Source: Protoeuglena noctilucae
Lineage: Eukaryota > Chlorophyta > Pedinophyceae > Marsupiomonadales > Marsupiomonadaceae
Length of the DNA: 64,000 nucleotides
NCBI GenBank assembly: GCA_958009085.1
Contig: OY253670.1
Location: forward strand, 124,001 to 188,000
Direction: 5' to 3'
Below, one piece after another: positions 7,067-61,251 of this stretch (within the stretch, counting starts at the first letter, position 1; every line of letters begins with the position of its first letter). The notes under the pieces were generated by a model. The model was not told the origin of the DNA. It was given only the letters and a program-made list of their open reading frames with translations, and made no database searches. The position numbers and the translations under genes were made by a program.

Positions 7067-8774
7067 ATGTCGACGGCAACCGTGACTCGTAACGGGCACG
7101 ACGAGGGCGCGGCCGGGAGCCCCTCGACGAGTCGGCACTCGGGTCTGGCCCGGCGACTTGTGCCCATCGCGGCGGTGGGCGTGCTTGGCGCGGCTGCGTT
7201 CTTCACCACGGTTGGGGCCATCGCGACGCTGTACAATGGCTGCGACCAGACCCAGACCATTGGATGGGCCTCCTACCACTCCTACACCGACTTTTTACGC
7301 GCACGCGCCACGGCCGGGCAGGATGCCTCCGTGGCGCAGCAAGTGGACTTCTGCTTGAAGTGGGGGATTGCCAACAACCCTTTCGTCGACATCGCGACGT
7401 GCAACACGGTGCTGCAGAACCCCTCCTTGACGTTTTTTGGGACGAAGGTGTGTGGCAGGGCGCCCTTCGCATGCAGTGTCCAGCGCCGCTGTGTGCGCCC
7501 TGCGATGTCACCCCGCGACGCCGCCCGCAGTGGGAGCACGACGTGCACCGATACTTCGACTGCGAGCACGCGTGGCGCCCTACCCTGATGCACATCCTCA
7601 CTTCCGGCGTCATGATCATCGCCTTCGTCCTTACCGCCTCCCTGGACGGCTTGGAGGTGCGGGGCTGCTTGTAAAGGCATGCTATGCGCAAGCGACACTC
7701 ATGGCCGTCACCGTGGGCCCCAACAATTGCATGGCGGTAATTGCGCCATTGTGGCCACAGACGATCCCTGCTTGTAGCACCGCTTCAGCTGTGTGACCCT
7801 CGGCGGCTTCCTAGGCCCTCCCACTGCAGCATTCGCGGCTCCGTGGAAGCCCCCACAGGATCGCGGTGTCGCCATCGCGCTGGCTTGCCTCCTGACCGCC
7901 ACGGCCGTCTACACGACCGCATCTGCGATCGACTGGGACTTCACCGCTGGCAAGAACCCCGTGCCGCAGCCCTACTGGGGCTGGCAGGACGTCAACAGCT
8001 TCTGGCAGGCGATCGACCCGTCCACGTACTTCCCGGTCGGGAGCAACCCCGCGCTGCGGACGGGGAACGAGGAGGCGTATTGGAACGGCACGAGCGACGT
8101 GTTCACGGGGCAGAACGACGCGCTGCAGAGGATCCCTGTCACGGAGACGAGCGAGGTGGTCGAGAACCTGTGGGTGCGGGACGTCGAGGGGCAGACGGGC
8201 AGCGCGGCCAAGATGTGGGTGCCGAGGGTGAGCTGGGGGGGTGTATGGGTTTCGTGAGAGCGTTTGGGTGGCAAAGTGGGTGCCGAGGGTGAGGGTGGGT
8301 GGGTGTATGGGTGTCGTCAGAGTTTGGGTCGCAAAGTGGGTGCCGAGGGTGACTGTGGTCCCAATGCACTCTGCCCCAGCTGCAAGCTTGTGTGGTTGAG
8401 GTCACCGTGTGAGTGAGGTCACCGTACCACCCGGCGTCGCAGGTCGCGTCGATGTGGAACATGGGGATGTTCGAGGACTACAAGGGGGACCAGACGCCCT
8501 GGGCGCGGTCGGCGATCACCGTCTTCGCGGGCCTGGTGGCTCTGACCATCATTCAGGCGAGGGGCTGTTTCAAGCTCTGACGTCCCGACAGCAGGGTCGC
8601 CACATCCTCCCACCTCTGTGCACCCGCCAGGCATATGATGTTCCTGACTGGTTTATCTTTAATGTCCGTTTGCTCTCTCTCCCGCAGTACGCCGCGGCTG
8701 TCCTCGCTGCCATCTGGGCCTCGTTCATATCCCCTAAAGAGAAGCACCGCACGCACCCCTCCCTGCCCACCTAA
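7067..8774 (+). CDS. Four-helix membrane protein, unknown function
   Basis: Five exons: 7067-7447, 7531-7656, 7777-8227, 8443-8566 and 8688-8774. All joins are phase 0. The third exon uses a TAG acceptor, and intron 4 has a GC donor (ATTCAG|GCGAGG at 8567). The protein is about 390 residues. Four hydrophobic segments are visible: LVPIAAVGVLGAAAFFTTVG, ILTSGVMIIAFVLTASL, GVAIALACLLTATAVYTTAS, and a long last one from AITVFAGLVALTIIQ through YAAAVLAAIWASF. Between helices 1 and 2 is a loop with several Cys (YNGCDQ, DFCLKWG, ATCNTV, DCEHAW). Between helices 3 and 4 is a roughly 120-residue soluble loop with YWGWQDVNSFWQAIDPST. The topology recalls tetraspan proteins, but I do not recognise the family. 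Confidence 0.7.
8212..8353 (+). repeat. 60/61-bp tandem repeat over a splice donor
   Basis: About 2.3 copies of a GT-rich unit with periods of 61 and 60 bases. The string TGCCGAGGGTGA recurs at 8220, 8281 and 8341. Copy 1 begins inside the third exon of the membrane-protein gene, so the exon end and its donor (AGG|GTGAGC, GT at 8228) are duplicated into the intron at 8289 and 8349. Confidence 0.9.
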
Positions 8775-9011
8775 GCGAGACTTGCCTTCTCATACTCTGC
8801 TAACCCACTTCTCTTCACCCACCCCTTTGGTAATTGATTTCTGTGTTCAGCTCCCACTCTGCCCCGACAGGCGCTCCGCTTCGCTGGACGTCGCGCATGT
8901 GCTCTGTGACCCGCGATTCCTCTCCATAGCTGCGCGCCTCGCTCGCGACCCCTCGCAAACCTCGCTTTCTCTTTCAAGTAGCAAATGCCAAAGGCAGTGG
9001 ACCGCATGCCA

Positions 9012-10849
9012 TCATTCACTGTCCCCATCGCCGTCACCCCCATCGCCCTCCTTGCCCCCCTCCTCCCCCTCGGGAAACACGTCGAAGCGTTCCACAGAGT
9101 ACTTGTTGCGCAGGGGCTCGCAGGGGATCAAGTTGCCCAGGTTGTCCTGCAGGGATGATCGGAAAGGCCAAGAGGTTTCAGCATCACCAGTGACATCACC
9201 CTTGGCCCTATCGACATGCTTGTGACAAAGCATCCCAAGCGCACTACCCTTCACTCTATCCTGTTCATGTTCCATGCTTAGCGTCCACTGCATGTCACTC
9301 GACGCCACAGGCCCACCCAGCTAGGGTCACAGCAACTCGCCTTCCCCAGGAACAGCGCGTATCGGAAGGCGCTTCGGAAGTCGCCGTCCTTGGGAAACGC
9401 CTTGGCCCACGACCCCTGGGGCGCGGCCAGGCCCTCCTCCGCCACGTACACCACGGGCACATCCTCGTTCGGCCAGTCCCTGCATGGGAAGGGGTGGCGG
9501 CAGTGGTGGATCGGGAGAGGAGTCGGGAGAGCGCATACGACAAGGACGCAGGGGAAGGTGACGGTGGATGGGGAGGCGTAACTGGGGACACCCTCAGCCC
9601 CGGTCTATGAGTGGGGCGCGTTTCCACGGTGTCGTTGTGTCATGCGCACTGCCCTTGGTGGCGTGACACCCTCATAGACAAGGAGACATTTTCACCCAAA
9701 ACATCCAACTCCTCACCTGTCGTCCACCAGCACGTGATAGAAGAACTGGTTGGCCCCTGCTTTCAGGCCCCCCTCCTCCTCCTGCTGTGCTGCCCACTCC
9801 TCCCCCTCACAGCACCGCCGGTCCCACCCCACGACGACGCCCCGGTACCCCTTGCGCGCGTGCCACACCCGCTGGCCCAGGCGGAACCGAGGGTCCACCT
9901 CCACGGCCCACTCCGACGCACGCAGAGACGCGGACACGCTCTGCTGCTCCAGCTCCTTGATCGCGTCGCGGAGCTTCGCGGCCTCCGCGTAGTCCTGCGC
10001 GGCAGCGGCGAGGCGAGACTCGAGTCGACGACACGGCTGCGGGGAAGCACATTTGCACGCCGCCCTGCCCCTCGCACCTCGTCGGCGATGGCCTTCTGAA
10101 GGCGCGAGCGCAGTCGCAGGCCCTCCGCGGTGATGTCCACGATCTCCTGCGACTGCCCCGGCGCCGCACCTCCCGCCCCCGGGCCCTTCGTCTGCTGCAG
10201 CTGCTGGTACGCCAAGTCGACCTGCTCCCGACGCCGGCGGATGTCCTGCGCCTCCTCGAACGCATCGTGGTGCAAAGCGCGCTGCAGCATCACGTCCAGC
10301 TCCATTTGAAAGAGCAAGATCTGCGCGACGACGCGGGGCAAAAGCGATCGAGACGGGTGGGAGAGGTGGGTAGCGAGGCGAGGCCAGTAGCAGCGAGCCT
10401 CGCGGCTCTAGGAGCGCCGGCGACGGAGATGTCACTCACTAGGAGCTCCTCTTTCGATATTGCAGAGAAGTCCGACATGATATCACCCGTCTTGCGCTCC
10501 CACGGCACGACGCTGCTCCCCGGCTGGTCGGTGGCCCGAAGCGGGGAACCCCTGCGATGAAAGCGAGGTCCGTGGATTCAGGACGATGTAGGGGCTCAGC
10601 ATCTACGCCGCGCGACGAAAGGGAGCTTCGATCGGGATCGCGCGGCGACGCCAGGCACCAGGCACCAGCCACACAACCAGCACAGCGCTGGCGCCGCCCT
10701 CGCCTGGCGTTTTGGGCGCGATGACCAGTGCGTGCGATTCTCAGTGCGGAAAAGCAGTTTGGGCAAAGAGCTCCGCGCCGGGCCGGCGAGGGCCACGTCG
10801 CCAAGCCCACGCGGCCCAGGGCGGTGCCCGTCAGCTGCGCGCCTCGCAT
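9012..10849 (-). CDS. ClpF-like UVR/YccV-domain Clp adaptor
   Basis: The minus-strand exons encode, in order: a Ser/Arg/Ala-rich N-terminus (MRGAQLTGTALGRVGLATW...) that fits a plastid transit peptide; DIMSDFSAISKEELLV; a helical UVR-like segment (FEEAQDIRRRREQVDLAYQQ); a second one (LAAAAQDYAEAAKLRDAIKE); and then a YccV/HspQ-type domain, FRLGQRVWHARKGYRGVVVG ... QFFYHVLVDDR | DWPNEDVPVVYVAEEGL, ending LGNLIPCEPLRNKYSVERFD. A transit peptide, UVR motif and YccV domain in that order is the architecture of plant ClpF, which works with ClpS1 to deliver substrates to the chloroplast Clp protease. A tail rich in Gly, Asp and Glu precedes the TGA stop. The first intron's donor and therefore the exact N-terminal exon are uncertain. 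Another UVR/YccV protein is the alternative. Confidence 0.75.
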
Positions 10850-11308
10850 GCCTCTGCTTCCCCAGGATAAGCGTTAATGATCTTGCAAACTGCCCAGCTG
10901 CGGGAGGTGTTTAAGGCTCGGAAAGGCGAAGGCTCTGAGGCAGCGGATTGATGCGACCCTGTCCAAACAAGGCGCGGTGGATAGCTGTGGGTCAGCGCTG
11001 CGCCCCAATCATGTGATTCTCTTGGCACACGATGGCATGTAGCATGGACCTCACATGCACGCGACTGGCATGCACGCCTGACTCGCTTGCCTCGCTCTTA
11101 CTCGATTGACAGTGCTGAAGAGACGCAGATGGGTTGGGCGCAATCGTTGCTGTCAGTGCGTATTGCCGGGTGATAGGAATCCTCGACAGCAGCAGTGGAT
11201 TTTGCAGCTCCTTTCCGCAGAAGAAAGAAATAGAAGCGTGGCGAGGAGCCCGCCCAGCGCACCCAAGGCACCTTTCGCGTCGTCAGCAGCGTCATTGTGG
11301 ATCCATCA
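10850..11308. other. Head-to-head promoter region
   Basis: About 460 bases between the apparent start of the minus-strand ClpF-like gene and the plus-strand ARM/TPR gene. No coding signal is recognised. It is the likely promoter region for both. Confidence 0.4.
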
Positions 11309-13467: not shown

Positions 13468-13600
13468 GTGGCTGCCCGGCACACGTGCTCTTGTCAGGCT
13501 CGTTCAACTTCTGTTGGCCGACTACCCGGGTGCTCGCTTCCTACGTCGCACCCTTGACGAGTCTCGTGCGCCCGTGGGTTAGGCTGCCAGCACCGCCCGC

Positions 13601-15469
13601 TCAGGCATAGGCCTTGCGTCCGACCGAGCGCCGCGCGACGGCCACGATGTCGTCGACTTGCGGGAAGGCGTTGGCCTCCATGTCCGCGGCGTAGGGCGTG
13701 GGGACGTCGGCGCCCGTCACGCGCTCGACAGGGGCGTCGAGGTCGTCAAAGAACCGCTCCATGGCCATGGCGGCCAGCTCCGCCCCGACGCCGCACTGGG
13801 GCCACCCCTCCTCGACGGACACCAGGCGGTGCGTCTTCCGCACCGACCGCGTGATGGTCTCGGTGTCGAGCGGGCGCAGCGACCGCAGGTTGATCACCTC
13901 GGCGCTGATGCCGTCCTTGGCAAGGATGTCGGCCGCCGCCAGGCAGTTGCCGACCTGCAGCCGCGAGTCGGCGCGAGAGCGGTCACGTCGCGTCGACACG
14001 ATGCACTCCGAGGAAGCGAGCACAGGGGACCCGCGCGGCATGCAACGAGCGTAGTATGTAAAGGGCACACGCGCGTTCTTCTGCGAGTGCACATGATCCG
14101 ACTCTCCGCTCCCCACTCGCCTGGCGGGAGAAGGACACGAGGGTGACGTCGGTGCCCTCGCGCATAACCTTGGCCTTGCCCAGGGGCAGCGTGAAGTCCT
14201 TGTCCAGCACCTCAGGCTTCACGGGGAAGGACTGCCCGTACATGATCTCGTTCTCCAGGAACACGACGGGGTCGGGGTCGCGGATGGCCGCCTGGAGGAG
14301 CGGGGGCAAGGGAGGTATTAGGAAACCGACCTCGCGCTTGCTGCCCACACTCGCCGCCGTTGCCACCCGCCAGGACACGACCGCACGTGGTGCCAAGTCG
14401 CCGCTTGGCCTTCTCTGTGAACTGTGTCACCTTCAGCAGCCCCCTGGCGTCCTCCGAGTCGTACGGGGCCAGGACCTTGAGGCCCGGGACGGAGGAGTAC
14501 CACGCGGCGAAACACTGGGAGTGCTGGGCAGCCACGCCAGCCGCAGCGCCTGGGAGGAGAGGGGGCGGGGGAGTCGAATGACGGGACTCACATCCCATTC
14601 CATGAGGTGTGCGTGACATGCGACCATGCACCATCTGTGCACATAGCTGGGTGACGGCGAGGGCGGCACGCACCGTTGGGCCCGCGGAAGACCATGGGGC
14701 AGGGGATCTTGCCGGCAGACATGTAGTAGGTCTTGGCAGCCGAGTTGACCACCTGGGAAGAGGGATGGGGTTGGAAGGGTTGCACCTGAGATGGCAGTGA
14801 GACGAGGCGTTGGACCTCGCCAAGCGCGGCTGGATCCCTTCCCACTCGCCTGGTCCATGGCCTGCATGGAGAAGTTGAAGGTCATGAACTCGCAGACGGG
14901 GCGCAGGCCCGCCCAGGCCGCCCCGACGGCGAGCCCCGCGAACCCGGCCTCCGTGATGGGCGTGTCCCGGACACGCTTGCCGCCGTACTTCTGGAAGAGC
15001 CCGCGCGTAATCTTGTACGCCCCCTGGTACTCGGCGACCTCCTCGCCCAGAATGAACTGCGCGGGTGGACGGGCGGGCGGGCGTGGGGTCGCACGCCGAC
15101 GCGGTGCAGGTCCAGGAACAGCGATCCCGGTGCCGTTGACGGGCGACACTGCTTCTGCGGTCTAGCGACGGCTGCGAGGCGCGCGCCGAGGGTCGGAGCG
15201 GCCACCCGGGGGGCGCGGATGGGGCGGCACGCACCACCCCCTCGTCACGCTCCATCTCCTCATCCAGCGCCGAGTTCAGGGCGTCGCGGACCGTCATCTC
15301 CGAAGTGCCGCTGCTGAAACCCCGCGCACCCGCCGCCAGGCCCTGGTTGCGCGCCTGCGGGGGGCGGGAGGGGCTGGGACATGCACGGACGAGGTCGCGG
15401 GGAGCGCCCGGCGGGGCCGACGCGACGAGACGGATCGCGGCCCGGACGCAACCGCGAAGTCAATTTCAT
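13601..15469 (-). CDS. PDHB: Pyruvate dehydrogenase E1 subunit beta, mitochondrial type
   Basis: Beta chain of the E1 heterotetramer of the mitochondrial pyruvate dehydrogenase complex, which decarboxylates pyruvate with thiamine diphosphate. Diagnostic segments in order: [169 protein letters not shown] and [15 protein letters not shown]. The stretch before MTVRD ([11 protein letters not shown]) resembles a mitochondrial presequence cleavage region, so mitochondrial rather than plastid targeting is inferred. The first exon is unresolved; the boundary given is one possible ATG. Two introns have GC donors: after MDQ (GC at 14849-14848) and after SFSRQ (GC at 14120-14119). Both are forced by phase. 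Confidence 0.95.
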
Positions 15470-16317: not shown

Positions 16318-18543
16318 ATGCCGGATATATCGGCCAATGCGGGTCCCGACGAGCTCCCGACGGGCTACGTGATCTCTAGCCCAACCAGTCAGGTGCCCCT
16401 CTTTCCAGGCGCTTCCACGGTAACGCATATGCTTCTGCGTGTGCGCCAATCCTCAAGCGCACGACGCACGGCTGCCCGCAGTACGAGGTCCTGGGCAAGG
16501 TCGGGCAAGGCAGCTTCGGGACGACCTACCGGTGCGCCCGCCCCGACGGGACGCGCGTGGCCGTCAAGGTCGTGGCGGTGCGCGCGCAGGGCGGGTGGAA
16601 GGCCTTCGACCTCTTCGAGCGCGAAGTGCGCGCGTTGCGGAGCATCCCTGCGTGCCTGGGCGTCCCAAAATTCCTAGACGCCTTCGAGCTGGCCCTCGAT
16701 GGAGGCGGCCTGGCGTGCGTCCTCGTGCAGGAGCTCGTCGAGGGCGAGAGCCTTGGCGCGATGAGTTGCGTGCGCGCGCCTGCACTGCTCTCGGCACTCA
16801 GGGGCCAGCCCTGCCCGGCACCGCCTAGCCAGCGACCCCTCACGCGGCCCCTTGATCTCCCGCCCAGTGCGCCGCGGCTGGCGACCGACGGAGGCCGAGG
16901 TGCGCCGCATCACAGACTGCCTCCTCGAGACCACGGAGGTGCTGGCCTCGCAGCGGCCGCCCGTGGTGCACCGGGACATCAAGCCCGAGAACGTCATGGT
17001 GGAGGGGGGCAAAGAGGTGAGAGGGAGCCTGCCTCTCAGGCCTGCGAGTGCTACCTGTGCTCCGCCACCTCATTTCAACTCACCCCTCGGGGTCCCTTGC
17101 TTCCCCAGGGAGGCCGCGTGGTTCTGGTCGACTTCGGCGCCGTGCAGGATGCCGTGAAGGTCGGCTCCCTGGGCACGACTGTCGTGGGCACGTACGGATT
17201 CATGGCCCCAGAGCAATTCCAGGGTGCCGCCGTCCCTGCCTCGGACGTGTATGCCGTCGGGGGCGTCTGCCTGTACCTTCTGTCCGGCAAGAGCCCTGAC
17301 CAATTCCCCCAGAGGCGCCTCGCGGTGGCCTTTGAGGGTCTGGTGGAAGTGTCCACGCTGCTGGGGCAGGTGCTGCGGGGGCTGCTCGAGCCGCTCCCGG
17401 AGGACCGACTGACGGCCCGCGAGGCGCGGGACATGCTGGCGGGGAGGCAGAGGGCAGCTGGGGCGACGGGGCTGGCGGCGGCAGGGAATGCATCTCTGGA
17501 GTTGGGCCGCGCTCAGGGTCGGACGCGGAAGCCCAAGGGCTCGCGCGTCGTGTTGGACCGGTCTCCGGGTGAGAGGAGCGACGCGATGTGCGATGTGCAG
17601 GGAAGCAGGCCCCGCGCGTTGCGGTGCATGTCAACACGCACATCGCTCGCACCCGTTTGTCCTGCCCAGGGCGGTTGACCGTGCTGCTGCCGTCGCGCGG
17701 CATGACGTGGGACGCGGCGGGCCTGTCTCTCTTCACGGCCACCTGGGTGGGGTTCGTGGGGCTGTGGACGGCCGGGGCGCTCTTGTCGGGCGGCGGCCTC
17801 ATGGCGCTTTTCAGCGCCCCCTTCTGGGCCGCGGGCGCCCAGTTGGGCCGGCAGACGGCGGACACGTGTTTCTTGACCGAGACGCTCGACGTGCACCGGG
17901 ATCAGTGGACGCTGCGGCAGGTGAGGTCGGCGGAGTGCGGCTGGGTGCAAGGCACCGGGACAGGGGCGGCGGGCGTGTCGTCGCATTGCTGTGCGAGACA
18001 GTGCCCCGGCTCTCGCGCACTCGCAGAAGTGGGTGCTGAGGAGGCGGCAGGCGGCAGACGCGGAGGACTCTGACAGCGATGGCAGGGTCGTGGCATCGGG
18101 GGCCACGGCGGACCTTCAGGTGTGGTGTGGCTGGGGCTGGAGCGGCCTGGCTGCCTCCTGCACCGTCACGCGTGGCCCGCTCGCTCTCTCGCACCCGTCC
18201 GCGTTCCCTGGCATGCACTGGCACCTGCGTGGCGTGTGCAGGTGGCCTTGAAGCGCGTCCCCGTTGCTGGGGAAGCTGGGGAAGGCGCGGAGCCAATCCA
18301 AGTCCTGGTCCTGCGGGAGGGCGTCGAGGAGCGGCCGTTCGGGGTGGGATACCTGACTCAGGTGGAGAACGACTGGATCCGCAGGTGGGCTGACTGCTGT
18401 GGCAGGGACAAAGGGCACTATGCGCTGTGTGTGCGGGGCGGGCATGTGCGGGCAACTGCGACTGCCGCTCCCTCGCTCTCAGTGAGTTGGATGGCTTTCT
18501 TGCTTCGACGCGGGCGCGCCTGCGCGAGCCTGGGGATCCCTGA
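16318..18543 (+). CDS. Cyanobacterial-type Ser/Thr kinase with membrane tail
   Basis: Eight exons, mostly GT-AG and in phase: 16318-16392, 16482 to about 16763, 16868-17016, 17109-17568, 17670-17920, 18027-18119, 18242-18384 and 18483-18543. The kinase domain is complete: P-loop GKVGQGSFGTTYRC, VAVKVV, catalytic loop VVHRDIKPENVMVE, VDFGAVQDAVK (DFG) and GTYGFMAPEQFQG. After the kinase come GSRVVLDRSPGRLTVLLPSR and two hydrophobic stretches (LSLFTATWVGFVGLWTAGAL and a following one), then a soluble tail. 'VDFGAVQ', 'APEQFQGAAVPASDVYAVGG' and the post-kinase 'LPSRG + two helices' are the pattern of cyanobacterial kinases and their plastid-lineage relatives, so endosymbiotic origin and a plastid membrane location are inferred. 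The donor of exon 2 is uncertain: GTTGCG, or a GC site just upstream. Confidence 0.85.
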
Positions 18544-18758: not shown

Positions 18759-20677
18759 TCACAGTCCCACGCGCTCCGGGCAGTACTGTCCGCGGAGGGC
18801 GGTGAGGACCTTGTTGGCGAGGCACTCGCTGTGCTTGTTGTTCGAGAAGCGCAGGCGGTTGGTGGCTTCCTGGAGGAACGCCACCCAGCCGCCCTCCTCC
18901 GCCTTGATGCCCTGCGGGGACTGGAGTTCCCGAAGTTTCCATAATGAAAGCCGACCGCCGGCAAAGAGCAGGCACGTCACACCCCTCGCGTCAACGCAGC
19001 GGAAAGGCTCGCCTGGGCCCCGCCCGTCCCCGCCACCGCCACCTCCGCCCTCGTGCACAGCAGCACGCACTCTGCGAGCTGCAGCGCTGCGGCCAAGCGC
19101 CAGTAGTCCAGCTCTCCCTCCGCCAGTCGCCTCTGCACCTCCTGTGGACTCCCCAGGGCCTCCACAGCGCGCGCGATTGACCGGGGGGCGTGGACCGCGT
19201 CACTCCTGTCGTCTCCACCGCCCCCCTTCTCGCTCCCGCTCTGCATCGCCTTCTCCAGAGCCCTGCGTCGCGGGTGGCTAACGGGATCTAGAGCTGCGAG
19301 GCACGTCACGTGTGGATGCGCACAGGTGGTAGCGGAGTGGCCGTCACCTGAGGGCCGCCGTGCGCACCATGCACAGCGTGTTGGGGTGGCTCTTGCCGGT
19401 CGCCATCCACGTCCGCAGCACGTAAGCAGCGCCCAGGGGATGCAGGTCGCCTGCGTAGGGGGTTTGAAGGAAGGCCTGGCATCGGAGCACGCAAGCCCGC
19501 GCGTGACGACAGCCTCCCGCTTTCATCTCACCGTCGATCCACGAGGACACCTGCGCCGCCACGTCGCGACCCGCGGGTCCCGGCAGCGCCTCGAGCAGGG
19601 CGCGGGCCGCCTCCCTTGAAGCCAGCGACAAGGGTCCCAGCGCGGGCGCGTCCGGAGGGTGCGAGGCGTCGTGGACGGCCCCGAGGGTCAGCAGCGCGCG
19701 GAGCAGGTCCCCGCACGCGGCCGAGTCCGCGAGGAAGGACGCCGCGGCCGGGGATCGGGCCGCAGCGGCAACGTAGGCGCACGCCCGGCAGACACCCCGT
19801 GTCTGGGGGGCGGTGGGTACGGGCGACGACGTGCCCGCCTCCCCGCCCGAAGACCGTCCCCGATCCGGTGACGCTAGCACGCCCAGCGCCGCCAGCTCGG
19901 CCAGCACCGCCCGGGGCCCCGGCAGGGCAGCGCCAGGGTCCGCCAGGGCCCCCAGCAGCAACGCGCATGCGCGGCCTCCTGCAGCCACGGGGGGGCTCGC
20001 CCTTACGCGCGGAGCGCAGCTGATGGTCGACTGTCATCATGACGTGACTTCACGTCCCCTATACCGCGGCGGTCGGCGCTGCAGCCCACCTGCACCCTCG
20101 TCCTCCTGTCGTATCGCTGCCGCGAGCAGAGTATCCGGTTGGACTGGCCCGTCCGCGCCGCCCCTGGCCAGCACCGTCCGCGCCAGCCGCGCGTCCGCCA
20201 CCAGCGACGCGGCATCCGACGCCCCCTTCGCCGCAAGCGGCACGGCCTTCCCGAAGTGCCACGTCGCCAGGAGTGCCGGTCGAACCTCCGTTCGCTCCCG
20301 CAGGTAGTTTGCTTGCTCCTCCGCTCTGCTCACGAGGTTGTCCATCTGCGGCGGCAGGTCGCAGGGTGCGGGAGACCGGCATGGTGCACGCTGGGGGCCA
20401 TGCTGCGCCCTGGGCTCCGCACCTGCGCCTTGTGGCGCAGGCTCTCCACGGCCGGGGGATCCGCCGGGGCGCATACATCTCCCTGCTCCCGGTCCTGGGC
20501 CTCGAAAGCCGCCTGGAGCTGCAGGAGTTTTCTGCGCTTTGCGCGGGCCTCCTCGACGCTCAGCGTGACCATCCGACCCGTGTGACTCGCCAGCCTGCGC
20601 TCCTCCGACCCCGCTGCTGCAGACGCACCGTCTGCCTGCGCAGGCGTCCCGGCCGTGCCCGTGAAACACTCGGTCAA
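18759..20677 (-). CDS. Unknown Ala-rich helical protein
   Basis: Starts at 20677 (MTECFTGTAGTPAQADGASA), then a charged helix (SVEEARAKRRKLLQLQAAFE). Next exons: MDNLVSRAEEQANYLRERTE ... LLATWHFGKAVPLAAKGASD, a long Ala/Leu-rich helical stretch (LLLGALADPGAALPGPRAVL ...), HPLGAAYVLRTWMATGKSHP, SPQEVQRRLAEGELDYWRLA, and a last exon (18911 to 18759) GIKAEEGGWVAFLQEATNRL ending YCPERVGL. Phases fit throughout. The last intron has a GC donor (CAG|GCGAGC, GC at 19012-19011) and the final join is phase 0. The overall character is an alpha-solenoid, but I recognise no family. It is head-to-head with the RBP45/47-like gene. Confidence 0.6.
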
Positions 20678-41775: not shown

Positions 41776-42307
41776 TCACTCGCGTTCGACTTCGATAGTC
41801 GCTTTGAGTCCCTCCTCGACCACGCGCAGCAGCAGGTCGATGTTGGGGTGCGAGCCGGGCGCGCCCTTCGCCTCTGCGACGTACTCGTCGTACCTGCGGC
41901 CATCATGACAATCGTACCTTTTTGTCAATCGTCTACTTAAGTCCCTGGACGTCTGCAATCGAGGCCCTGAGACCGCACCAGAGCAGCGCCTCCCGGGCCC
42001 CCGTGGCGTCCAGCCGCCCGCCGTGCCGAAGGCCGATGGCGTGGTAAATCGCGACGCTTGCGGCCTTCCCGGGCTTGTTCTCAATGCTCCAATCCAGCTC
42101 GGGGATCTGTGCGGGGCGAAAAGGCCAATAAGAGCTGCATACCGATGGACAGCCCGACGGAGAGGTGCCAAGCGCGCCGCCACTCGCCCGAATACGCTTG
42201 ACGTCCGCCACTGATGGGAGCTGAGCGACGTTTTCCTTCATCGCGCGTGTCGATAGCTGACGATACCTCCCCGACGCGGCATATGCTGCCCACGCTCGCA
42301 GCTGCAT
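41776..42307 (-). CDS. Small mitochondrial-looking protein, unknown
   Basis: Three exons give about 135 residues. The N-terminus MQLRAWAAYAASGRYRQLST then RAMKENVAQLPSVADVKRIR resembles a mitochondrial presequence (Arg/Ala-rich, no acidic residues at first). It joins to IPELDWSIENKPGKAASVAI, RHGGRLDATGAREALLWCGL and, after a short intron (donor AA|GTAGAC), YDEYVAEAKGAPGSHPNIDL ending ATIEVERE. The first join uses a probable GC donor (CGG|GCGAGT, GC at 42187-42186) and acceptor CACAG. A GT site a little further on would leave a very short intron. The size and charge suggest a respiratory-chain or ATP-synthase accessory subunit, but this is a guess. Confidence 0.5.
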
Positions 42308-46181: not shown

Positions 46182-47349
46182 ATGCCGCAGAACGAGTACA
46201 TGGAGCTTCACAAGAAGCGGTACGGGCAGAGGCTGGACTTTGAGGAGCGCAAGCGCAAGGTGAGGCCCGCGCGCGAAGGCCCTGCGGTATCTAACGCGGC
46301 CGCATGAAGACGCCGACAAGATGCGGCGCGAGATGGGAGCTCGCCGGCCCATGATGGGGTGCTGCCGGGCCCTGCTGTCTGCAGAAGGAGGCGCGCGAGG
46401 TGCACAAGCGCGCCGAGTACGCGAGGAAAGCGCTGGGTATCAAGGGTAAGATGTTCGCGAAGAAGAGGCACGCGGAGAAGATTCAGATGAAGAAGACGAT
46501 CGCGATGCACGAGGAGTCGGACAAGAAGCACCGCGTCGAGGACGGGCAGCCCAAGGCGAGGGCCCGTGCGGCGTGGATGTGCAGAGGCAGTTTGCGGAAC
46601 GGAGGGCGACGGGCGGGGTCACCGGCCCAGGCGCGCGTGCGGCCTCTGACCCCCATCGGTGCGCTGTCCTGCAGAATGCCGTGCCCACGTACCTGCTGGA
46701 CCGTGAGCAGGCGGACCGCGCCAAGGTGCTGAGCAACACCATCAAGCAGAAGCGGAAGGAGAAGGCGGGCAAGTGGGAGGTGCCCCTGCCCAAGGTGCGG
46801 GGTATCGCCGAGGACGAGATGTTCAAGGTCATGAAGAGCGGGAAGCGGCAGAAGAAGTCGTGGAAGCGCATGGTCACCAAGGTCACGTTCGTGGGACAGG
46901 GCTTCACGCGCAAGCCCCCCAAGTACGAGCGCTTCATCCGCCCCACGGGCCTGCGGATGACCAAGGTGGGGGCTGGCACGACGCGGAAGCAGGCTGGCGA
47001 CGGGAGGCTCTGCTCAGACCAGCGTAGCGTTGAGCGGGGTCAGCCACCACCTGTGCACCGCTCTCCCATGACTGACCGACGATGTCGCGTGGCCCACCGC
47101 TCCCAGGCGCACGTGACGCACCCGGAGCTCAAGGCGACCTTCTGCCTCAACATCATTGGGGTGAAGAAGAACCCCAACGGGCAGATGTACACGGGGCTGG
47201 GGGTGATGACCAAGGGGACGGTCATCGAGGTGGACGTCTCGGAGCTGGGGCTCGTGACGCCGGCGGGGAAGGTGGTGTGGGGCAAGTACGCGCAGATCAC
47301 GAACAACCCGGAGAACGACGGGTGCATCAACGCCGTCCTTCTGGTATGA
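46182..47349 (+). CDS. NSA2: Ribosome biogenesis protein NSA2
   Basis: Nucleolar factor required for 60S subunit maturation. Four exons: 46182-46259, 46385-46555, 46675-46965 and 47107-47349. The protein is highly conserved: [120 protein letters not shown] and [20 protein letters not shown], ending INAVLLV. Length (about 260 residues) and the C-terminal end match the family exactly. Intron 2 has a GC donor (CCCAAG|GCGAGG, GC at 46556). No nearby GT keeps the frame into NAVPTYLL, which makes this one of the firmest GC-AG introns here. Confidence 0.97.
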
Positions 47350-47688: not shown

Positions 47689-49825
47689 ATGCCGGAGAGG
47701 TCTTGCCTGTGGGGATGGACGGTGTGGACCTGTTGGTGAGAGCGGAGCAGTTCGAGGGCTCCCTTGGGGCAAATGCACACACAGAAAACGCTTTGCATTT
47801 GGCTTCCATGCAGGCTCCTCGTCACGCCCCTGATCTTCCTCTACTACGCCCTCAAGGTCTATGTTTGGGGTTTCCTCAGCATCTACCTGCGAAGGGCGGG
47901 CACCCAACTCTTCTGCGGCCTGTGCATCCTTTGCGGGTGGACCTATGTCGACAAGGACTTTAATGGAGACGCAGCCATCGTCGGTGGGACTAAGAAGGGC
48001 GGGGATTTCAGGCAAGGGTGCCAAATCAGGATCTGCCTGGCGCAGAGGGATGCATGCGACAGCGCGAGGGATGCATGTCGTCCTGTGCACTCGCAGCAAC
48101 ATCTTGGCGAGCGTGGATATGAAGGACGTGCGCTGGCTGCGGATCGGCGAGGTCTGCCGATCGATGGGGTACCTGGACGGCAAGGACGTGCCGCTGTTAT
48201 TCGCCGAGAAGATCGAGCCTGCGGACATCCTGCAGGGGGGCCTGGGGGACTGCTGGCTCCTGGCAGGCATCGCGAGCGTCGCCATGCACCCGCACCTCAT
48301 CCGGCGGATATTCGTGCAGCGCGAGTACAGCCCCACGGGACGCTACAAGCTGAGGCAAGTGCAAGCTCCAGGGGACAGGTCAACCAGAGGCCTGTCGAAG
48401 TGCACTCTTGCGTCAGGTCCATCCTGCTACCCTCGCTGTGCCGTTCAGGCTTTATGACCGGGAGACGCTCCAGCCGAGGACGGTCGTCGTGGACGACCGC
48501 ATTCCCTGCGACAAGGACGGGCAGCCGCTGTTTGCCAAGCCGAACGGGAAGGAGGCGTGGGTGCTCCTGTTGGAGAAGGCGTTCGCCAAGATGTGGGGGT
48601 CCTACCAAGCCCTGGACGGGTGCGCAGACGCGGCCGGCAAGGGCTCAACGGCTTGCATCACGCCATCGTAAGAATGGCAATATCCACCTAGGCCGCCCCT
48701 GGTTCCCTTCGCAGGGGCCTGACCGAGTGGGCCATTCAGTCGATGCTCGGCTGCCCTTCCATCTACTACCGTCGCAAGGCGAACGTGTGGGTGCGTGTGG
48801 CGGTGCATGGCCCCGTGGAGGAGGCCAAAAAGCAAGTGGGTGAGTGCCTCACCCACTGCCAACAGTCTCTGACACCGCAGCCGGCCAAAGTGACGCCTGC
48901 GGGGTCGTCACTGGTCTCGCTGGCTTCCCCGCCCGCGCAGGCAAGTCGGTTACGAACGATGAGATGTTCAAAGTCCTGTCGCTGTTCCTCAAGCTCGGGT
49001 CGCTCGTCTCGACGTCGATGCACGACGAGGAAGCGGGGCTGGAGCACGTCAACACGTGAGTGCTGACTCGCAATCTGAGCCGTGACATGGGATGCTGCGA
49101 CATGCGGCTGAGCCAGAGCTTCCTTGGACACCGTCGCACGCAGCCACGGCCTCGTCAACGCGCACGCCTACTCGCTGTTGCGCACGGTGAGTGCCAAGGC
49201 CCAGGACGGCACGAAGGTGCGGCTGGTGTCTCTCCGCAATCCTTGGGGACGCGGCGAGTGGGAGGGCGCGTGGTCAGACAACTCTCCGATGTGGGAACAG
49301 AACCCGAAAGTCAAAGAGGCGGCCAACGTCGTGGCCAAGGGTGAGGGCGAGCACTGCTACGGTGACCGTCTCCCTGGCTTAAACAGCACCCACCCCGACC
49401 CTCCCCTGCCCTGCCTTCAGATGACGGCTCCTTCTGGATGCCGTGGGATGAGTTCTCGCGTTCATTCGAGATGGTGCAAGTGATGGCGAGGGACCTGGGG
49501 GCTAAGAACTTGCTGATGGACTATGACGAGAGCCGGCCGTGCCTGGGGCCCCTCGCAGGGTGCACCTGTGGACTACTGTCCTACTGGTGAGTCGGGGAGG
49601 GCGCGGTGCATGGGTCTCCTGTCCTGCCACGAAGCCATGCGACAGGCTGCTGTCTTAAGAGAGGCCCATCTGCACGACCTCACCGTCACCCGCAGCTGCT
49701 GCTGCGTGGGCTGCCGCGCCGTATGTTGCGCGGCCGAAGCGGACTACGTGGCCGAGACGGGGCCGACAGATGCCAAGTGCCTCAGTCGGCGGTGGTGGTA
49801 CAACCACCTCGTGTCGTCCGAGTGA
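47689..49825 (+). CDS. Calpain-type cysteine protease with membrane N-terminus
   Basis: A small first exon (47689-47735, MPERSCLWGWTVWTC) joins in phase to LLVTPLIFLYYALKVYVWGF, an N-terminal membrane segment. The protease core follows: ADILQGGLGDCWLLAGIASV (catalytic Cys), LYDRETLQPRTVVVDDRIPC, EAWVLLLEKAFAKMWGSYQA, THGLVNAHAYSLL (catalytic His), VRLVSLRNPWGRGEWEGAWS (catalytic Asn) and DDGSFWMPWDEFSRSFE. All three catalytic residues are present, so Ca2+-dependent proteolysis is expected. The C-terminal beta-sandwich domain of classical calpains is absent. Instead the last exon encodes a Cys-rich tail (GCTCGLLSYCCCVGCRAVCC) and ends HLVSSE at TGA. Exons: 47814-48011, 48097-48354, 48449-48619, 48715 onward, 48941-49056, 49144-49340 and two more. 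The second GC donor (48355) is forced by frame; the first (48012) has a possible GT alternative a few bases on. Confidence 0.9.
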
Positions 49826-49913
49826 AGCTAGAAAGCCGAGAGTGACCGGAGCTGCTCCAGCTGCAAACTTGAAAACGTTAAGCGGAAAGCATGCGACGCG
49901 ATGCGCGTGCTTC

Positions 49914-51248: not shown

Positions 51249-53930
51249 ATGGCCAGCGAGCCCGTTCCCGTCTTCACGGACCTCGTGTCCGTGTACGGGA
51301 CCGATGGGGCCGCGGAGGCCAACGAGCGCTATCGCGAGTTGAAGGTGAGGAGTATATGGGCTAGGCGTAGGATCGCGGGCGTGCCGAGGCGTTCTGGACT
51401 GGGAGAACCGGCCCGCAACACGCAGGAGGCGTTTGAGCGCGCGTACGGCGCGGCCCCGGAGCTCTACTCTCGATCTCCTGGCCGCGTCAACCTGATCGGC
51501 GAGCACATCGACTACGAGGGCTACGGGGTGCTCCCGATGGCCATCAAGCAGGACACGGTCTTTGCCTTCCGGTGCGCGGTCGTGCCAGCCTGCGCGCGAG
51601 CCCCGGCGCCACCGATTCCGCCACGCGGCCTCTCAGAGGTTCACTTTGTCTCGCTCCGCAGGTCAGCGGGGTCTTCCCTTCAGGTAGCCAACGTGAACGG
51701 CTCCAAGTACGCGCCGGTGGAGTTCCGTGCCGATCACTCACAGGAGGTCGACCGCTCCCACCACACCTGGGCCAACTACTTCCTCGCGGCGTACAAGGGC
51801 GTCTTCGAATACCTCGCCTCCAAGGGCATGCCCCTGCCGCAGGCGAGGCGGGAGTGCGCACCGCACCGGCGATGCGAGCGGGTCGTGCTGGCCTCTGGAG
51901 CGTGCGTATGACGTGCCGCATGCCGCCTTCGCAGGAGCGGGGCATCCAGGTCATGGTGGACGGGCGCGTCCCCACGGGGGCGGGCCTGTCTTCGTCGTCG
52001 GCGTTCGTGTGCGCGGCGGCCATCGGGCTCCTGGGGGTCTTCGGCGTCTCATTGACCAAGGGAGAGGTGGCCGAGTTCACAGGTGAAGCGCTTGCCTTTA
52101 GCTTCCTGCAGCCGTGGGCGTGCATGTCATGTTGCCGTGGGTACCTTGGCTGACGACGGATGCCACGGTGCGCTTGTACGCCCAGCCAAGTGCGAGCGCC
52201 ACGTGGGCACCGAGTCGGGGGGCATGGACCAGGCGATCTCGCTCATGGGCCGCCCCGGCGTGGCCATGAACATCGACTTCAACCCCGTGCGTGGCGGCGA
52301 CGTTGCGGTCCCCACCGACGGCACCTTCGTGATCGCTAACAGCCTCACGGGTGAGGGAGGAGTGCAGTGAATTGCGCGTCGAGTGCTCGGACTCTCGGCT
52401 GCATTACATCTCCCAACCCCGTGCCTTGCTTGGCAGCCAGACATTGGAGCCGGACAATGCCTCGACTGCGGTGTGCGCTTGGCTGCGTGAGATGACTCGC
52501 GCCTCTCGGTGCCCTTCCCGCAGTCAGCAACAAGGCGGAGACAGGTCCCCGCAACTACAACATGCGCGTGGTGGAGTGCCGCTTAGCCGCCGCGTGCCTC
52601 GCCGTGGCCCTCGGCACGCCGCCCGCGGACGCCCGGCGCATCGTGACGCTGCGGGAGGTGGAGCCCCTGGTGAGTGACTGAGTATTGGCCTGTACTTTGA
52701 TCGGTTCTAGCAAGGTTGACCAGCACGGAGAGCGCAAAGCACGACATGACCATCACCACCACCTTGACATTCATGGACAGGTGGTCTCGGTGCTGTAGCC
52801 AATCTGATGGTGCATGCTGGCCTCGCTTGCAGGTCGCGCAGGGCAACCCCGACCACGAGGCGGTGCTGGAGGCGGCGGCGAGGGCGGCGCAGGAGCACCT
52901 GCATGCGGGCAAGTACACTCAGGTGAGAGACGCACTTCACAGACACCCCACCCTGCACAGTGCTACACAGCCGGTACCTTGGAGTGACTTTGGATGGTCG
53001 CTCTGTGCCTGTGCAACTCACGTCTCACGACTCTGCACCAATTTCACCTCTTGCGCAGGAGGAGGTGGAGTCTGTGCTGGGGGTCCGCCTGGAGACTCTT
53101 CTGGAGGGCCGCGCCAGCCAGCTGCAGGTGCTGCCCGTGGCGGCGCAGGGCGGCGGGTTCAGCCTCCGCGACCGCGCCGTGCACGTCTTCACGGAGGCGG
53201 CAAGGGTGGAGACCTTTCGGTGAGGAGCGATACGCACAGTGGGGCATGAAAGGGGGCGTGCTGGGTGGGATGATCATGAGCAGAGATTCATGCATGGAGT
53301 GATGAGGGAGCCAAGGGACGAAAGCTGTTGCGTGTTGTGCCTGCGTGGCCGACGCAGAGAGATGCTGACGTCAGCCCGCTCCCTCTTGGTGTTTTGTTTG
53401 CAGCCGCGTGTGCGCGTCGGGCGCCCCCGGCCAGGAGGTCCTGTCGCAGCTGGGGGAGCTGATGAACGCGTCGCACGCCTCGTGCCGGGACAGGTACGAA
53501 TGCTCCTGCCCTGAACTGGAGGAGCTCGTGGGCCTGGCGCGGGCGCACGGGGCCCTGGGGGCTCGGCTGACGGGAGCGGGGTGGGGCGGGTGCGCCGTGA
53601 TGCTCGTCGGCAAGGGCCGGGAGGGGGCATTCATCAGGTGCGACCTTGCCACGCCATGCATGCCGCCTCCCTACCGCAGTCATGGGCGCTCGTAGTCATA
53701 TGCACTGATGTCGTTCCACTCTACCCTCTTACAGCGCTGTTGCAGTCGCCCTCGGTTTCGTGCTTAGTCCACCTACGTGACTCCCTCTCCCGCCCTCCCC
53801 CAGTGCCCTGAGGGAGGGTTTCTTTGCCAAGCGCGTGGCGGCCAAGGTGCCAGGATCCGAGGATTCGGACGAGGCCGTCTTTGCGAGCAGGCCCGCTGCG
53901 GGGGGCGCGCTGCTGCGCCTGAAGCTCTGA
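51249..53930 (+). CDS. Galactokinase
   Basis: GHMP-family kinase that phosphorylates galactose at C1, the first step of the Leloir pathway. About eleven exons. Signature segments: [20 protein letters not shown] (galactokinase signature), [20 protein letters not shown] (ATP-binding GHMP motif), [35 protein letters not shown] (crosses a splice), [13 protein letters not shown], and [17 protein letters not shown] (C-terminal GHMP motif). The end is LLRLKL and TGA at 53930. Length and motif order match plant and animal galactokinases. The intron after GMPLPQ has a GC donor (GC at 51843) and acceptor CGCAG before 51935; the GT just downstream is out of phase. The remaining introns are GT-AG. Confidence 0.96.
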
Positions 53931-54490
53931 GAGAGGTGCTGCTCTGTGAGAGGTTTGCGCCCATGGCTGTGACTGTGACACCGTTGCAGTGTCACGTGGT
54001 TGGTTTTGGGAGAGACGCGAGCTTGACAAATGGGCGCGACGAAACGTGCACGGCTAGACAAACACAGTGAACGGCGAAATGTGCTCTGGCGGGCTCGCCC
54101 GCACGGAACGCGAAAGAATCAAGGAACGCGAGAAGATCGGATCGCGAGCCCGGCGGCGCTGTTGCCAATCGGGTCCTAGTCAAGACATGGAACGTGTCAC
54201 AGGGTCAGACATGGCTAGGCTAGGACGGGCGAGAACGGGCGAGGGGCGGCTCGCCCCTCATCTACACCAGGTGGAACCGAAAACGCCGGATAGCAGCTAC
54301 GAGGACAGCTTCCAGGGCACTTGGGGGGGATGCCGACACGGACACACCGACATAGACATGGAGTTGAGCGACGCATTGCGCCTGCAGAATGCCTGTGCAT
54401 GGAACGCATGCCCGACGGCGAAGCGAGGGGCCGGGAACGAGGCGGCTTGAGCGCGTCACGGCCCTTGGGCCGGTCATCCCTGGTAGTATG
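53931..54490. other. Convergent intergenic region
   Basis: Between the galactokinase stop and the apparent end of the minus-strand RING-CH gene. No gene is recognised. The end of the RING-CH gene is itself uncertain, so part of this may be its 3' UTR. Confidence 0.4.
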
Positions 54491-55957
54491 CTACAGAGGA
54501 GGGTGCCAAATGTCCAACAGGGTGTCCCTGCACATGCAGAGCGAGGGCCGTGCATTCCTGCTCCTACACATCTCATGGGACCAGCCTCTGCATGACTGCG
54601 CGACTGTTGCTTGCCAGTCACCTGAGCCGCCGCCCCAGCCCCCGGCCCCCCTCGACCCTCTTCGCATTCCCCTGCGCCAGCTCCCCCGTCCCCCCCAGCT
54701 CCCCGATGTCTGCGGCCGCAAGGGACACCAGTTCAGTTCAGAGCATGGAACAATGTCTCTCGTGCTATATACAACCCCACCGCCTCCCTGCCGCGCACCT
54801 GACATGGGCACCCTGACTGCCTCTGCATTCTCGTCATCGGCACCCCAGCCCAGGGCGCCTGCCGATGACGCGCTCCCGTCTGCCTCCGTGTCGCTGCCTG
54901 CTATCGCCGCATTCGCCAACTCCAGCAAAGTCGCTGCCTCCACCTTCACCAGACTCGCGGGGTCCACCTCTGACAGGTCGTCTGGCTCGTCTGCCCCCTC
55001 CTCTCCCTCGCTGCAAGCGCCCTTGTCGGCCACCCACGCCCCCTCCATGCACGACGCCTCTCGCTCGGACGTGACCCCCACCTGGCCCCCACGCGGGGCA
55101 CCCTCGGGGACGCTGTCACCATCGCGCTGCGCGGGGAGCTCAGAGCCACGCAGCTGCTCCGCGTCGCCCCCCTGAAGCAGCCTGGGGCAGGCGGGGCTCA
55201 GGCACGTGCTGGCTGGCGCCCGCGCCTGGCCCTGGCGCTTCTCCGCGGATACGCACGCGCAGTGCACGGCCGCGTCGTATGCGCCGGCGCCACGGAGCGT
55301 CATCAGAGACCCTGCGGGGAAGTGCAGGGTGGTTGGGGCGGTCGCGGGGGGGGCGGTGAAGGGGGTTGCTGTGTGCGACCCCAGTGCACCCTCTACCCAA
55401 TGCCACGAGCTCCAGTCCACTCGCCTGTGAGAGGATCGTCGCATGAAAAGCTGATGCTGAGGTCTGAGTCCTCGGGGAGGGCAAAGGCAGCGCGGATGGC
55501 GTCGGTGAAGGCCTCGTAGCCGCCGCGGCCGGACTGCACGGTCAAGGAGAGGGCCTGCCCGCCAAAGTTGACGGCCATGACGGCCGGGGCGGAGCAAGTG
55601 AGGTCGGCCGGGGTCAGGGGAGCCCGCCAGTCAGGGAGAGGGCCGTGGCAGAAGTCGCAGCAGTGCTCGCGCGCGGTGCCGGCCGACTGGAGCTGCCAGC
55701 GCGCGAGGCACAGGGCGTGCACGAAGCGTGGGCAGTGACATGGCTGCGGGCGAGGCGGGGCGGCGTAGGTGCCCTGGCCCGGAGGGCACAAGGCACGGGC
55801 AAGGGCCCGCCGGGAGAGGCACGTGTGGGGATGTCGACCGTCGCGCGTCTTCCTATATTGGGGCAAGGCTGCTCACCCGAATTAGCTCCGACTCGTCGGC
55901 GCCGTCCAGGCATATCCAACAAACCTCGTCGTCTCGGGGGGGCTGCGAGGGCAACAT
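54491..55957 (-). CDS. RING-CH (RINGv) zinc-finger protein
   Basis: Starts at 55957: MLPSQPPRDDEVCWICLDGA, then ELIR joined across an intron to PCHCPRFVHALCLARWQLQ and HCCDFCHGPLPDW. The ligand order C-x2-C ... C-x-C ... H-x2-C ... C-x2-C is the RING-CH (RINGv) pattern of MARCH-type E3 ubiquitin ligases. A second domain follows: VMAVNFGGQALSLTVQSGRG, YEAFTDAIRAAFALPEDSDL and SISFSCDDPLTG|SLMTLRGAGAYDAAVHCA. Its 'FT.AIR.AFGLP.DS...I.F.C' layout resembles a beta-grasp or PB1-like fold. The intron between LTG and SLMT has a GC donor (GC at 55434-55433). After this the sequence is acidic and low complexity, and the true C-terminus is uncertain. No membrane segments are obvious, unlike most MARCH proteins. 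Confidence 0.75.
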
Positions 55958-58290: not shown

Positions 58291-58710
58291 CGGCTACCCA
58301 ACGATGGACAACACGGGCGCTGGCACGGCGTCGAGGGTCCCGTGAAAACAGATAAGCGATGATCGTTACGGTGTAGTTGACACATCCGATCCCAGTTAAG
58401 GGAGACGTTGACGCCACAAGGATCATTCGTCAACGATGCGTTTGACGGCATGACAAAGACGCAGGAAAGATTGCCGCGTCGCAGGACTGGCACGCATTGA
58501 CGCGGCGCGTCAGAGACTCCGTTGAAAGGCCCCTGGCAGGCCTTGTGTTCCATGCAGTCCTTGGTTGCCAGTGGACGTGCAAAGCGTGAACAGCATCGGG
58601 CCTCCTGACCGGTTGAGCCGGTGATTTCGTGGTCGCGAGCGCGAACACGCTGTGCCCGGCTCTCAGACCGGCGGACGTCGCGGGGCTCGCGCCCCGCGCC
58701 GCCCGGCGCC
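58291..58710. other. Head-to-head promoter region
   Basis: 420 bases between the carrier and epsilon-tubulin start codons. No coding signal is recognised. Confidence 0.4.
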
Positions 58711-61251
58711 ATGCCCCGTGAGCTAGTCGTGATCCAGGTCGGGCAATGTGGCAACCAGATAGGAACTCGGTTCTGGGAGATGGCGCTGAGGTGACCGCGG
58801 TCTCCGCGACCTCCCTCAACCGCGCGAGGCGATGCGCCGCCGGCCTGTGCCCTCATTCCCTCGCGAGTGATGTCGTTCTTTCCATCGCGCGATGCGGGCA
58901 ACGGCGGAAGCTTTTGATCTTCTCGCGCAGGGAGCACGCGGCGCACAACCCGCAGGGCGTGTTTGACGACGCCATGAGCAGCTTCTTTCGGAACGTGGAT
59001 GCCAGGTTCGAGCCACCACAGGAGATTCCTTTGGGTGGCCGCGTGCGGGACCTGCGCGCTCGCGCCGTGGTCATCGACATGGAGGAAGGGGTCGTCAACT
59101 CTCTGCTGCAGGGCCCATTGGGGTAAGGGCCGCATTGCCGCTGACATCTGCGGCTGCTTCGACCAGCCGCGATGGCACCCACGGCCATCTGCTCTGATCC
59201 CAGGGACTTGTTCGACCACCGCTCCATGCTGACGGACGTGAGCGGCGCCGGCAACAACTGGGCCCACGGCTATGCCATGTACGGTCCCAAGTATCACGAC
59301 AACCTCGTCGAGTCCGTGCGGGCAGCCGCAGAGCACTGCGACTCTCTGCAGAGGTGGGCAGCGTGACCAGGAGCGCCCTTCCTTGCGCGCCACGCACCCA
59401 CACCTGTGGCTGGAACACTGACCCAGGTGTCGCGCATGTGCTGTCGAGCGATAAGCGTGTACTGACACCGTGACCTCCGCAGTTTCCTGGTCACCCACTC
59501 GCTGGGCGGTGGGACGGGCAGCGGCGTGGGTAGCTACCTCATGGGTGTGCTGGAGGACGAGTTTCCTGAGGTGTATCGCTTCAACGTGGCCGTGTTTCCC
59601 AGCGAAGACGACGACGTCATCACCTCGCCCTACAACTCCCTCCTCAGCCTGTCCAAGGCGAGTCCTGTGCATGTGGCAAAGGGTGCACCAGGGGTCAACC
59701 TAGGGCACATAAGCCTGCGAAACAGCGTGCCATGGGAAGTCTTGCGCATATTTCCACCCGCAGCTCGCCGAGCATTCGGACTGCGTCTTTCCCGTGGAGA
59801 ACCAGGCGCTGATGGACATCTGTGCAGCTATCGACGGGGCGGGCCCGCGGCTAGACGCGAGGAGAGGTGCGGCACTCGACGGACAAGTGGCAGACGCGCC
59901 CGGGTGAGCGGTGCGGCGCTGACGGAAGAGGTGGAGTGGCGGCAGTGCTGGCGATGGCGGGAGTGCTGCATGTTGCATGGCAACGCACTTCATGTGTGCG
60001 AGGGTGAACGACGGGTGCCACATCATTCATACCCTGGCCCGTACACCCAGGACGCGGGAGAAGCCCTTTGACCGCATGAACGGCATCGCTGCCAGTCTGA
60101 TGCTCAACCTCACCTCCTCCGTCCGCTTCAAGGGCTCCCTCAACGGTGACGGCCGGCGCAGGGTAGCAAGATGGTCAACAAACCTTGTGCATAGACCTCC
60201 ACTATAATCGACATGATCTCTGTTTTTTCATCGATAAGTCTTGGTCCCCAATGTGCCGGGGATGGGACTTGCCGTCGCCATCCCCATCACCAAGAGAGAC
60301 CTTGGCTCTCAAGTCCTCCCTTGCCCCCAGTGGATGTCAATGAAATTACCATGAACATGGTCCCGTTCCCACGACTGCACTTCATGACTGCGTCCATGGC
60401 ACCCATATGGGCCCCGGGGGGTCCCCGTGCCATGCGGCAGCCCCGGGGCCTGGAGCAGATGTTCACAGACGTGCTGCAGCCCAAGAGCATGCTCGTGCGG
60501 TCGCAGCCCAAGGCACACACCACGCTGGTGAGGATTGGCCGAGCTAGGCTGGCGAGTCGTCACACAATGCCCGTCGCTGGTCGGCTGCCCCACTGAGCCG
60601 CCTGGGCAGGCAGGCGCTGCGCTGGCGTTTCATCGACGCTCCGATAGTGCCGCTTTCGATGCACGCCGGCCGTGACCTCCCTGCACCGCAGGCCTGCGCG
60701 ATGCTGATGAGGGGCGAGGCGACCATCTCTGACGTGAACCGGTGCATGGCTAAGGTTAAGAAGGAGATGCGCATGGTGCCGTGGAACCGGGACGGTTTCA
60801 AAATCGGACTGTGCAGCAAGGGGCAGGTCGGCATGCCACAGGTGAGCGCCTGCCAGCCCCACTCGGTGTCACAACTGAGCAGCAGAGCAATGGACGAACT
60901 ACTGGCCTGCGTCCTCTGCGTTTCGCGACCCGAGAGAGCGCGCCTGCACGCTGCCACCCCTGCGCACCACCACCTCTACCCCTCGCATGGCCCCCGCAGT
61001 CCCTCCTGTGCCTTCAGAACAACACGGGCATCCAGTCGAGTTTCCGCGCCATGTGCGACCGCTTCGACAAGCTCTACTCCCGCAGCTTCTACCTCCACCA
61101 CTACACGCAGTACATCGAGCAGGCATCGTTTGACTGCGCGAGGGAAGACGTGAGGCAGCTGGTGGAGGAGTACAGGGGGCTAGAGACCGGAGGGGTGCAG
61201 GGCGCGCCCGCCACGCGCCTGCAGCCGGTCGGGCTGTCTTTTAACCGGTAG
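58711..61251 (+). CDS. TUBE1: Epsilon-tubulin
   Basis: Centriolar tubulin needed for triplet microtubules and basal-body duplication. Nine exons, all phase-consistent: 58711-58790, 58931-59122, 59204-59353, 59483-59657, 59764-59903, 60051-60145, 60331-60527, 60693-60841 and 61000-61251. Features distinguishing epsilon from gamma or alpha/beta: [40 protein letters not shown] then [87 protein letters not shown] and [13 protein letters not shown]. The GTP-binding loop GGGTGSG is intact. The intron after LSLSK has a GC donor (AAG|GCGAGT, GC at 59658). A GT a few bases on would also keep phase but insert three residues not found in relatives. The stop is TAG. Confidence 0.96.

Follow-up and report, generated by a model that had tools for sequence, protein, structure and literature searches.

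GC-AG introns, in which the usual GT donor is replaced by GC, make up on average 1-1.5% of introns elsewhere (PMC7072748, PMC6310983). Iwata and Gotoh (2011) reported them to be extraordinarily abundant in GC-rich genomes and termed the cause an enigma (PMC3033335). The GC-AG share amounts to 39.6% in Aureococcus anophagefferens (genome 69.5% GC) and 22.2% in Micromonas pusilla (65.9% GC), and the putative U1 5' end of both species is the standard AUACUUACCUG (PMC3033335). Chlorella NC64A, at 67% GC, has 7.7% GC-AG introns (PMC3033335, PMC4111847). In Emiliania huxleyi GC is even the majority donor (56-65% in curated and RNA-seq sets), confirmed by RNA-seq and reverse transcription PCR (RT-PCR) and ascribed to GC content (PMC4028052). 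A literature search on GC-AG introns in Trebouxiophyceae gave nothing. Here we analyse a gapless window of 64 kb (66.4% GC), i.e., the whole stretch of DNA studied, from contig OY253670.1 of the green alga Protoeuglena noctilucae. Its high GC content, numerous short introns and plant-like genes are such as might be expected of a green alga. The share of GC-AG introns in this window is far above 1-2%, and their GC donors lie almost wholly within near-perfect donor flanks.

All counts come from this one window, and introns were predicted with a small hidden Markov model for gene finding, for which the window itself served as training data. It was run with GT as the only donor, with the second intron base (position +2) left free so that GT, GC, GA and GG competed from an equal start, and with two intron classes having separate donor profiles. 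The two-class run yielded 138 introns in 22 gene models (about six introns per gene), namely 104 with GT, 31 with GC, 2 with GG and 1 with GA. The GC share is thus 22% (31/138; 95% interval 16-30%, obtained by resampling genes), and 16 of the 22 models hold at least one GC intron. With +2 free, the numbers were 103 GT, 30 GC, 2 GG and 1 GA, and the GT-only run gave 134 introns, over which admitting GC gained 183 log units, GA 30 and GG 15. Two extra GC introns (donors 39744 and 8557) are backed by other evidence and absent from the model's 31. An earlier sequence-only reading of this DNA had listed 22 GC donors and put the GC share at 10-20%, which captured the high share and was slightly low as a figure. 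Twenty of its donors fall exactly on GC, preceded by AG in all but one case, while 8567 and 55434 should read 8557 and 55424, both good GC donors 10 bases from the listed coordinate; about ten further GC introns can be added to its list.

The excess of GC donors is also apparent where no gene model is needed. The extended motif [CA]AGGC[AG]AG occurs 41 times in the window, compared with 15.0 on average in 100 dinucleotide shuffles (standard deviation 4.0, maximum 26 in any shuffle; 2.7-fold), and its GT version [CA]AGGT[AG]AG 17 times compared with 5.9 (2.9-fold), whereas the GA and GG versions were not enriched in the window over the same shuffles (10 vs 7.1 and 15 vs 10.9, respectively). With perfect flanks, the motif is therefore commoner with C than with T. 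Called donors account for 24 of the 41 GC copies, 10 of the 17 GT copies and none of the 25 copies with GA or GG.

The window thus shares with M. pusilla and A. anophagefferens a GC-rich algal genome, a very high GC-AG share, AG acceptors and equal intron lengths in both classes, although M. pusilla has 1.9 exons per gene (PMC4111847) compared with the far denser introns observed here. E. huxleyi is likewise GC-rich (65%), with canonical acceptors and GC donors frequent enough to break standard gene models. There, however, GC forms the majority of donors, as confirmed by RNA-seq and RT-PCR, whereas its predicted share in the window is about 22%. Chlorella NC64A resembles P. noctilucae in being a green alga with a GC-rich genome and several introns in each gene, but it reaches about a third of the window's GC-AG share. 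The ordinary minor U2-type GC-AG class of plants, animals and fungi has the same GC donor, AG acceptor and spliceosome class, but is about twenty times rarer. Since the same phenomenon has been published for several GC-rich algae, the window adds another example to a known class.

Protein homology locates a number of these junctions. In spliced protein-to-DNA alignments of homologue sequences against the raw DNA (eight genes in total), all 16 donor dinucleotides were given equal cost and no donor profile was applied, an AG acceptor being required. For NSA2, pyruvate dehydrogenase E1 beta (PDHB), serine acetyltransferase, VAMP7 and a tubulin-family gene, these alignments placed 7 GC and 9 GT junctions and no others, so that a GC start combined with an AG end is found at seven homology-fixed junctions in five genes. 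No equivalent shifted GT-AG reading exists for any junction in the five genes, and forcing GT lowered the alignment score by 109 points in PDHB, 37 in serine acetyltransferase, 29 in VAMP7, 23 in NSA2 and 6 in the tubulin-family gene. Summed over the eight genes, allowing GC gained 233 points, and each of five other dinucleotides tried gained 96-136. For NSA2, the model product aligns gaplessly with its human counterpart over 260 residues. The PDHB product matches human PDHB across 327 residues with one single-residue gap, the 14120 junction itself being ungapped, and the serine acetyltransferase product aligns gaplessly over 233 residues, with a match that spans the 27097 junction. Viral and prokaryotic contigs searched for relatives of NSA2 and PDHB gave none. 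Joining the upstream exons of VAMP7 via donor 40936 raised its match from 77.8 to 114.8 bits, and the GC junction at 39744 raised a Pfam kinase score from 132.3 to 139.2 bits. Not every junction could be fixed in galactokinase, the calpain-domain gene and the dihydrouridine synthase, owing to their divergence from solved homologues; in galactokinase, the alignment allowing GT and GC picks donor 51843 and an acceptor 15 nucleotides (nt) further on, while the alignment allowing any dinucleotide slides.

It is hardly credible that these GC sites are prediction or sequencing errors and that the true donors are nearby GT sites. Several GC donors do have an in-frame GT no more than 30 nt away, and at calpain donor 48355 the alignment with calpain-1 prefers a GT four bases on, which leaves that site ambiguous. 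Against this stand the losses of 23 to 109 points on forcing GT in NSA2, VAMP7, serine acetyltransferase and PDHB, and the motif excess, which appears without a gene model and not for GA or GG. The sequence-only reading had stated that no GT close by preserves the frame; within 30 nt this is strictly correct only for some sites (e.g., 14849, 51843, 1188 and 862), but elsewhere an in-frame GT exists, e.g., at -21 of donor 46556 and at -27, -18 and +18 of donor 14120, where its use costs conserved residues.

GC donors differ from GT donors in their flanks. A occupies position -2 in 96% of GC donors vs 57% of GT donors (p = 5e-5) and position +4 in 89% vs 58% (p = 0.003), and G occupies +5 in 100% vs 77% (p = 0.003), while intron length, acceptors and pyrimidine content showed no difference between the two classes. 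We scored flanks by their matches (maximum six) to [CA]AG/GN[AG]AG, with +2 excluded. In the two-class model, none of the 44 donors with up to four matches used GC, compared with 7 of 60 at five matches and 24 of 34 (71%) at six. The trend persists when the model holds no information at +2 (8/56 with five matches, 23/32 with six), and in the homology-anchored set perfect flanks occur in 7 of 8 GC donors vs 1 of 9 GT donors (p = 0.003); it is therefore not created by the donor model. Furthermore, C/(C+T) equals 0.71 at perfect-flank donors and 0.69 at intronic GN[AG] sites, two values that are indistinguishable. In the GC-AG literature compared, we did not find it stated in this form that GC depends on complete flanks and there reaches a share that matches base composition. 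Observed here in one window, this pattern could help with the enigma, and it offers a simple, testable rule for the phenomenon so named by earlier authors. Across the window, G is found at +3 in 95% of GT donors and, in place of T, at +6 in 51%, and positions -2 and +4 of these donors are weak.

The sequence-only reading had attributed the GC donors to relaxed or altered U1 pairing. With an altered U1, GC would be expected to be as good as GT whatever the flanks, which is not what we observe, and this part of the proposal is not supported, given the better flanks of GC donors. The milder "relaxed" pairing may hold in the sense of more tolerance of C at +2 when all else pairs. In broader form, a lineage-specific change of the splicing machinery (a U1 variant, a U1 modification, or a protein of the U1 small nuclear ribonucleoprotein, U6 or Prp8) would read C at +2 as well as T. 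We regard such a change as unlikely, although at complete flanks C is as frequent as composition predicts (24/34), with no visible discrimination, and for the GA donors of some animals a variant isoform of U1 has been put forward (PMC7072748). Compared with GT, GC calls for better flanks, so C remains the weaker base, and the putative U1 5' end of M. pusilla and A. anophagefferens is standard, as noted above (PMC3033335). An Rfam scan of the window found neither U1 nor any other RNA.

We consider it probable that these are ordinary U2-type introns in which C at +2 is tolerated provided that the other U1 pairs are complete, the base itself drifting with composition. C at +2 would be left unpaired by a U1 with the usual 5' end, at the cost of one base pair, and the site would still be used when the remaining donor positions ([CA]AG before and [AG]AG after) pair well. 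At 66% GC, mutation or GC-biased repair would keep converting T to C at +2, with selection purging C beside weak flanks and largely ignoring it beside complete ones, so that the share of C at complete flanks would approach local base composition. Better flanks at GC donors are what one would predict if an ordinary U1 tolerates a C:A mismatch, while a U1 pairing with C would not require them. As GC is confined almost wholly to near-perfect flanks, an altered U1 is not needed, and for P. noctilucae we infer a standard U1 and neutral drift at +2. The GC sites themselves would be the ones spliced in vivo.

Several points weigh against this explanation. The gene models are automatic and unreviewed. 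Human donors with perfect flanks are overwhelmingly GT, which makes near-neutrality at +2 itself unusual. Micromonas RCC299 has a genome of 64.1% GC, yet 2.7% GC-AG introns (PMC3033335). Composition is therefore not the whole story, and a lineage-specific tolerance, or a different time or strength of GC bias, is possible. A stronger version of the explanation is more doubtful, namely that, once all other U1 contacts are in place, the choice between T and C at +2 is effectively neutral, and that a genome's GC-AG level is the product of composition and the share of perfect-flank donors. If true, neutrality at +2 would explain the published enigma without a changed U1 sequence, or would indicate that other parts of the spliceosome have relaxed their check of +2 in particular lineages.

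Some GC-AG introns of humans and nematodes have been interpreted as having regulated, weak donors retained for alternative splicing. Such roles are documented elsewhere (PMC7242645), and in the window retention would break the frame for 26 of the 31 GC introns. However, the GC introns are too numerous for this and too uniformly distributed (in 16 of 22 genes, housekeeping genes included), and their flanks are strong rather than weak, which makes this explanation very improbable for many of these sites.

Gene prediction limited to GT fails at these introns, as the sequence-only reading had anticipated. None of the 31 GC introns was predicted correctly in the GT-only run, in which 24 had the donor displaced with the acceptor kept, 5 were wrong at both ends and 2 were lost. 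Since GT-only models are wrong at these junctions, annotation of P. noctilucae and its relatives needs GC donors enabled. The GC-AG introns of the window are collected in the table below. The gene finder fused exportin-4 with serine acetyltransferase and NSA2 with the calpain-domain gene; we do not claim these fusions, and single junctions are unaffected. Two further GC candidates, 12151 (39 nt) and 46721 (1734 nt), were rejected as artefacts of the model.

GC-AG introns in the window, with strand and supporting evidence (a slash marks the exon-intron boundary)
Gene or feature	Donor	Position	Strand	Evidence
WW-domain gene	AAG/GCGAGC	737..862	-	gene finder; WW domain matched
WW-domain gene	AAG/GCGAGG	1087..1188	-	gene finder
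WW-domain gene	AAG/GCGAGT	1268..1378	-	gene finder
tRNA-dihydrouridine synthase gene		4783..4904	-	gene finder; used by GT+GC alignment
GC-AG intron	CAG/GCGAGG	8557..8687	+	motif; frame continues across 8688
UVR/YccV-domain gene		9147..9340	-	gene finder
pyruvate dehydrogenase E1 beta		13955..14120	-	equal-cost homology; ungapped vs human PDHB
pyruvate dehydrogenase E1 beta		14753..14849	-	equal-cost homology; human PDHB match
Ser/Thr kinase gene	AGG/GCGAGA	16744..16867	+	gene finder
gene without Pfam match		18912..19012	-	gene finder
serine acetyltransferase		26958..27097	-	equal-cost homology; ungapped across junction
exportin-4 gene		29498..29585	-	gene finder
exportin-4 gene		29968..30106	-	gene finder; protein match
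exportin-4 gene	AAG/GCAAGA	31296..31422	-	gene finder
exportin-4 gene		32191..32314	-	gene finder; protein match
exportin-4 gene		32591..32698	-	gene finder; protein match ungapped across junction
weak candidate, low-scoring gene model		35067..35221	-	gene finder only
kinase gene		37438..37647	+	gene finder
kinase gene	AAG/GCGGGT	38187..38351	+	gene finder
kinase domain		39744..39828	+	Pfam score rise; gene finder took 46-nt GT intron instead
VAMP7 gene		40936..41036	+	two-class gene finder; VAMP7 bit-score rise
VAMP7 gene		41134..41215	+	equal-cost homology
VAMP7 gene		41482..41572	+	equal-cost homology
DUF2322 gene		42107..42187	-	spliced product covers PF10084 positions 2-97 of 99, 80.8 bits; gene finder
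kinase-like gene		42683..42789	-	gene finder
kinase-like gene		43083..43188	-	gene finder
kinase-like gene		44048..44139	-	gene finder
NSA2		46556..46674	+	equal-cost homology; gapless human NSA2 match
calpain-domain gene		48012..48096	+	gene finder
calpain-domain gene	GAG/GCAAGT	48355..48448	+	supported by gene finder; homology ambiguous
galactokinase		51843..51934	+	GT+GC alignment; no in-frame GT within 30 nt
GC-AG intron	CAG/GCGAGT	55312..55424	-	gene finder; motif
tubulin-family gene		59658..59763	+	equal-cost homology

Some of the genes carrying these introns have further features. The DUF2322 gene (41776-42241, minus strand), whose family PF10084 is described as conserved in bacteria, holds one GC-AG and one GT-AG intron and scores 80.8 bits, which suggests a bacterial-type gene that acquired introns in a eukaryotic nucleus. 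The kinase-like gene (42600-45140, minus strand) has the catalytic-loop motif HWDLHPAS and a long hydrophobic stretch at its end, and is possibly a membrane pseudokinase. The tubulin-family gene (58780-61251, plus strand) is divergent, with matches to alpha and beta tubulin in two stretches, and perhaps encodes an epsilon or delta tubulin. The calpain-domain gene (47700-49825, plus strand), located directly downstream of NSA2, has a hydrophobic N-terminal part.

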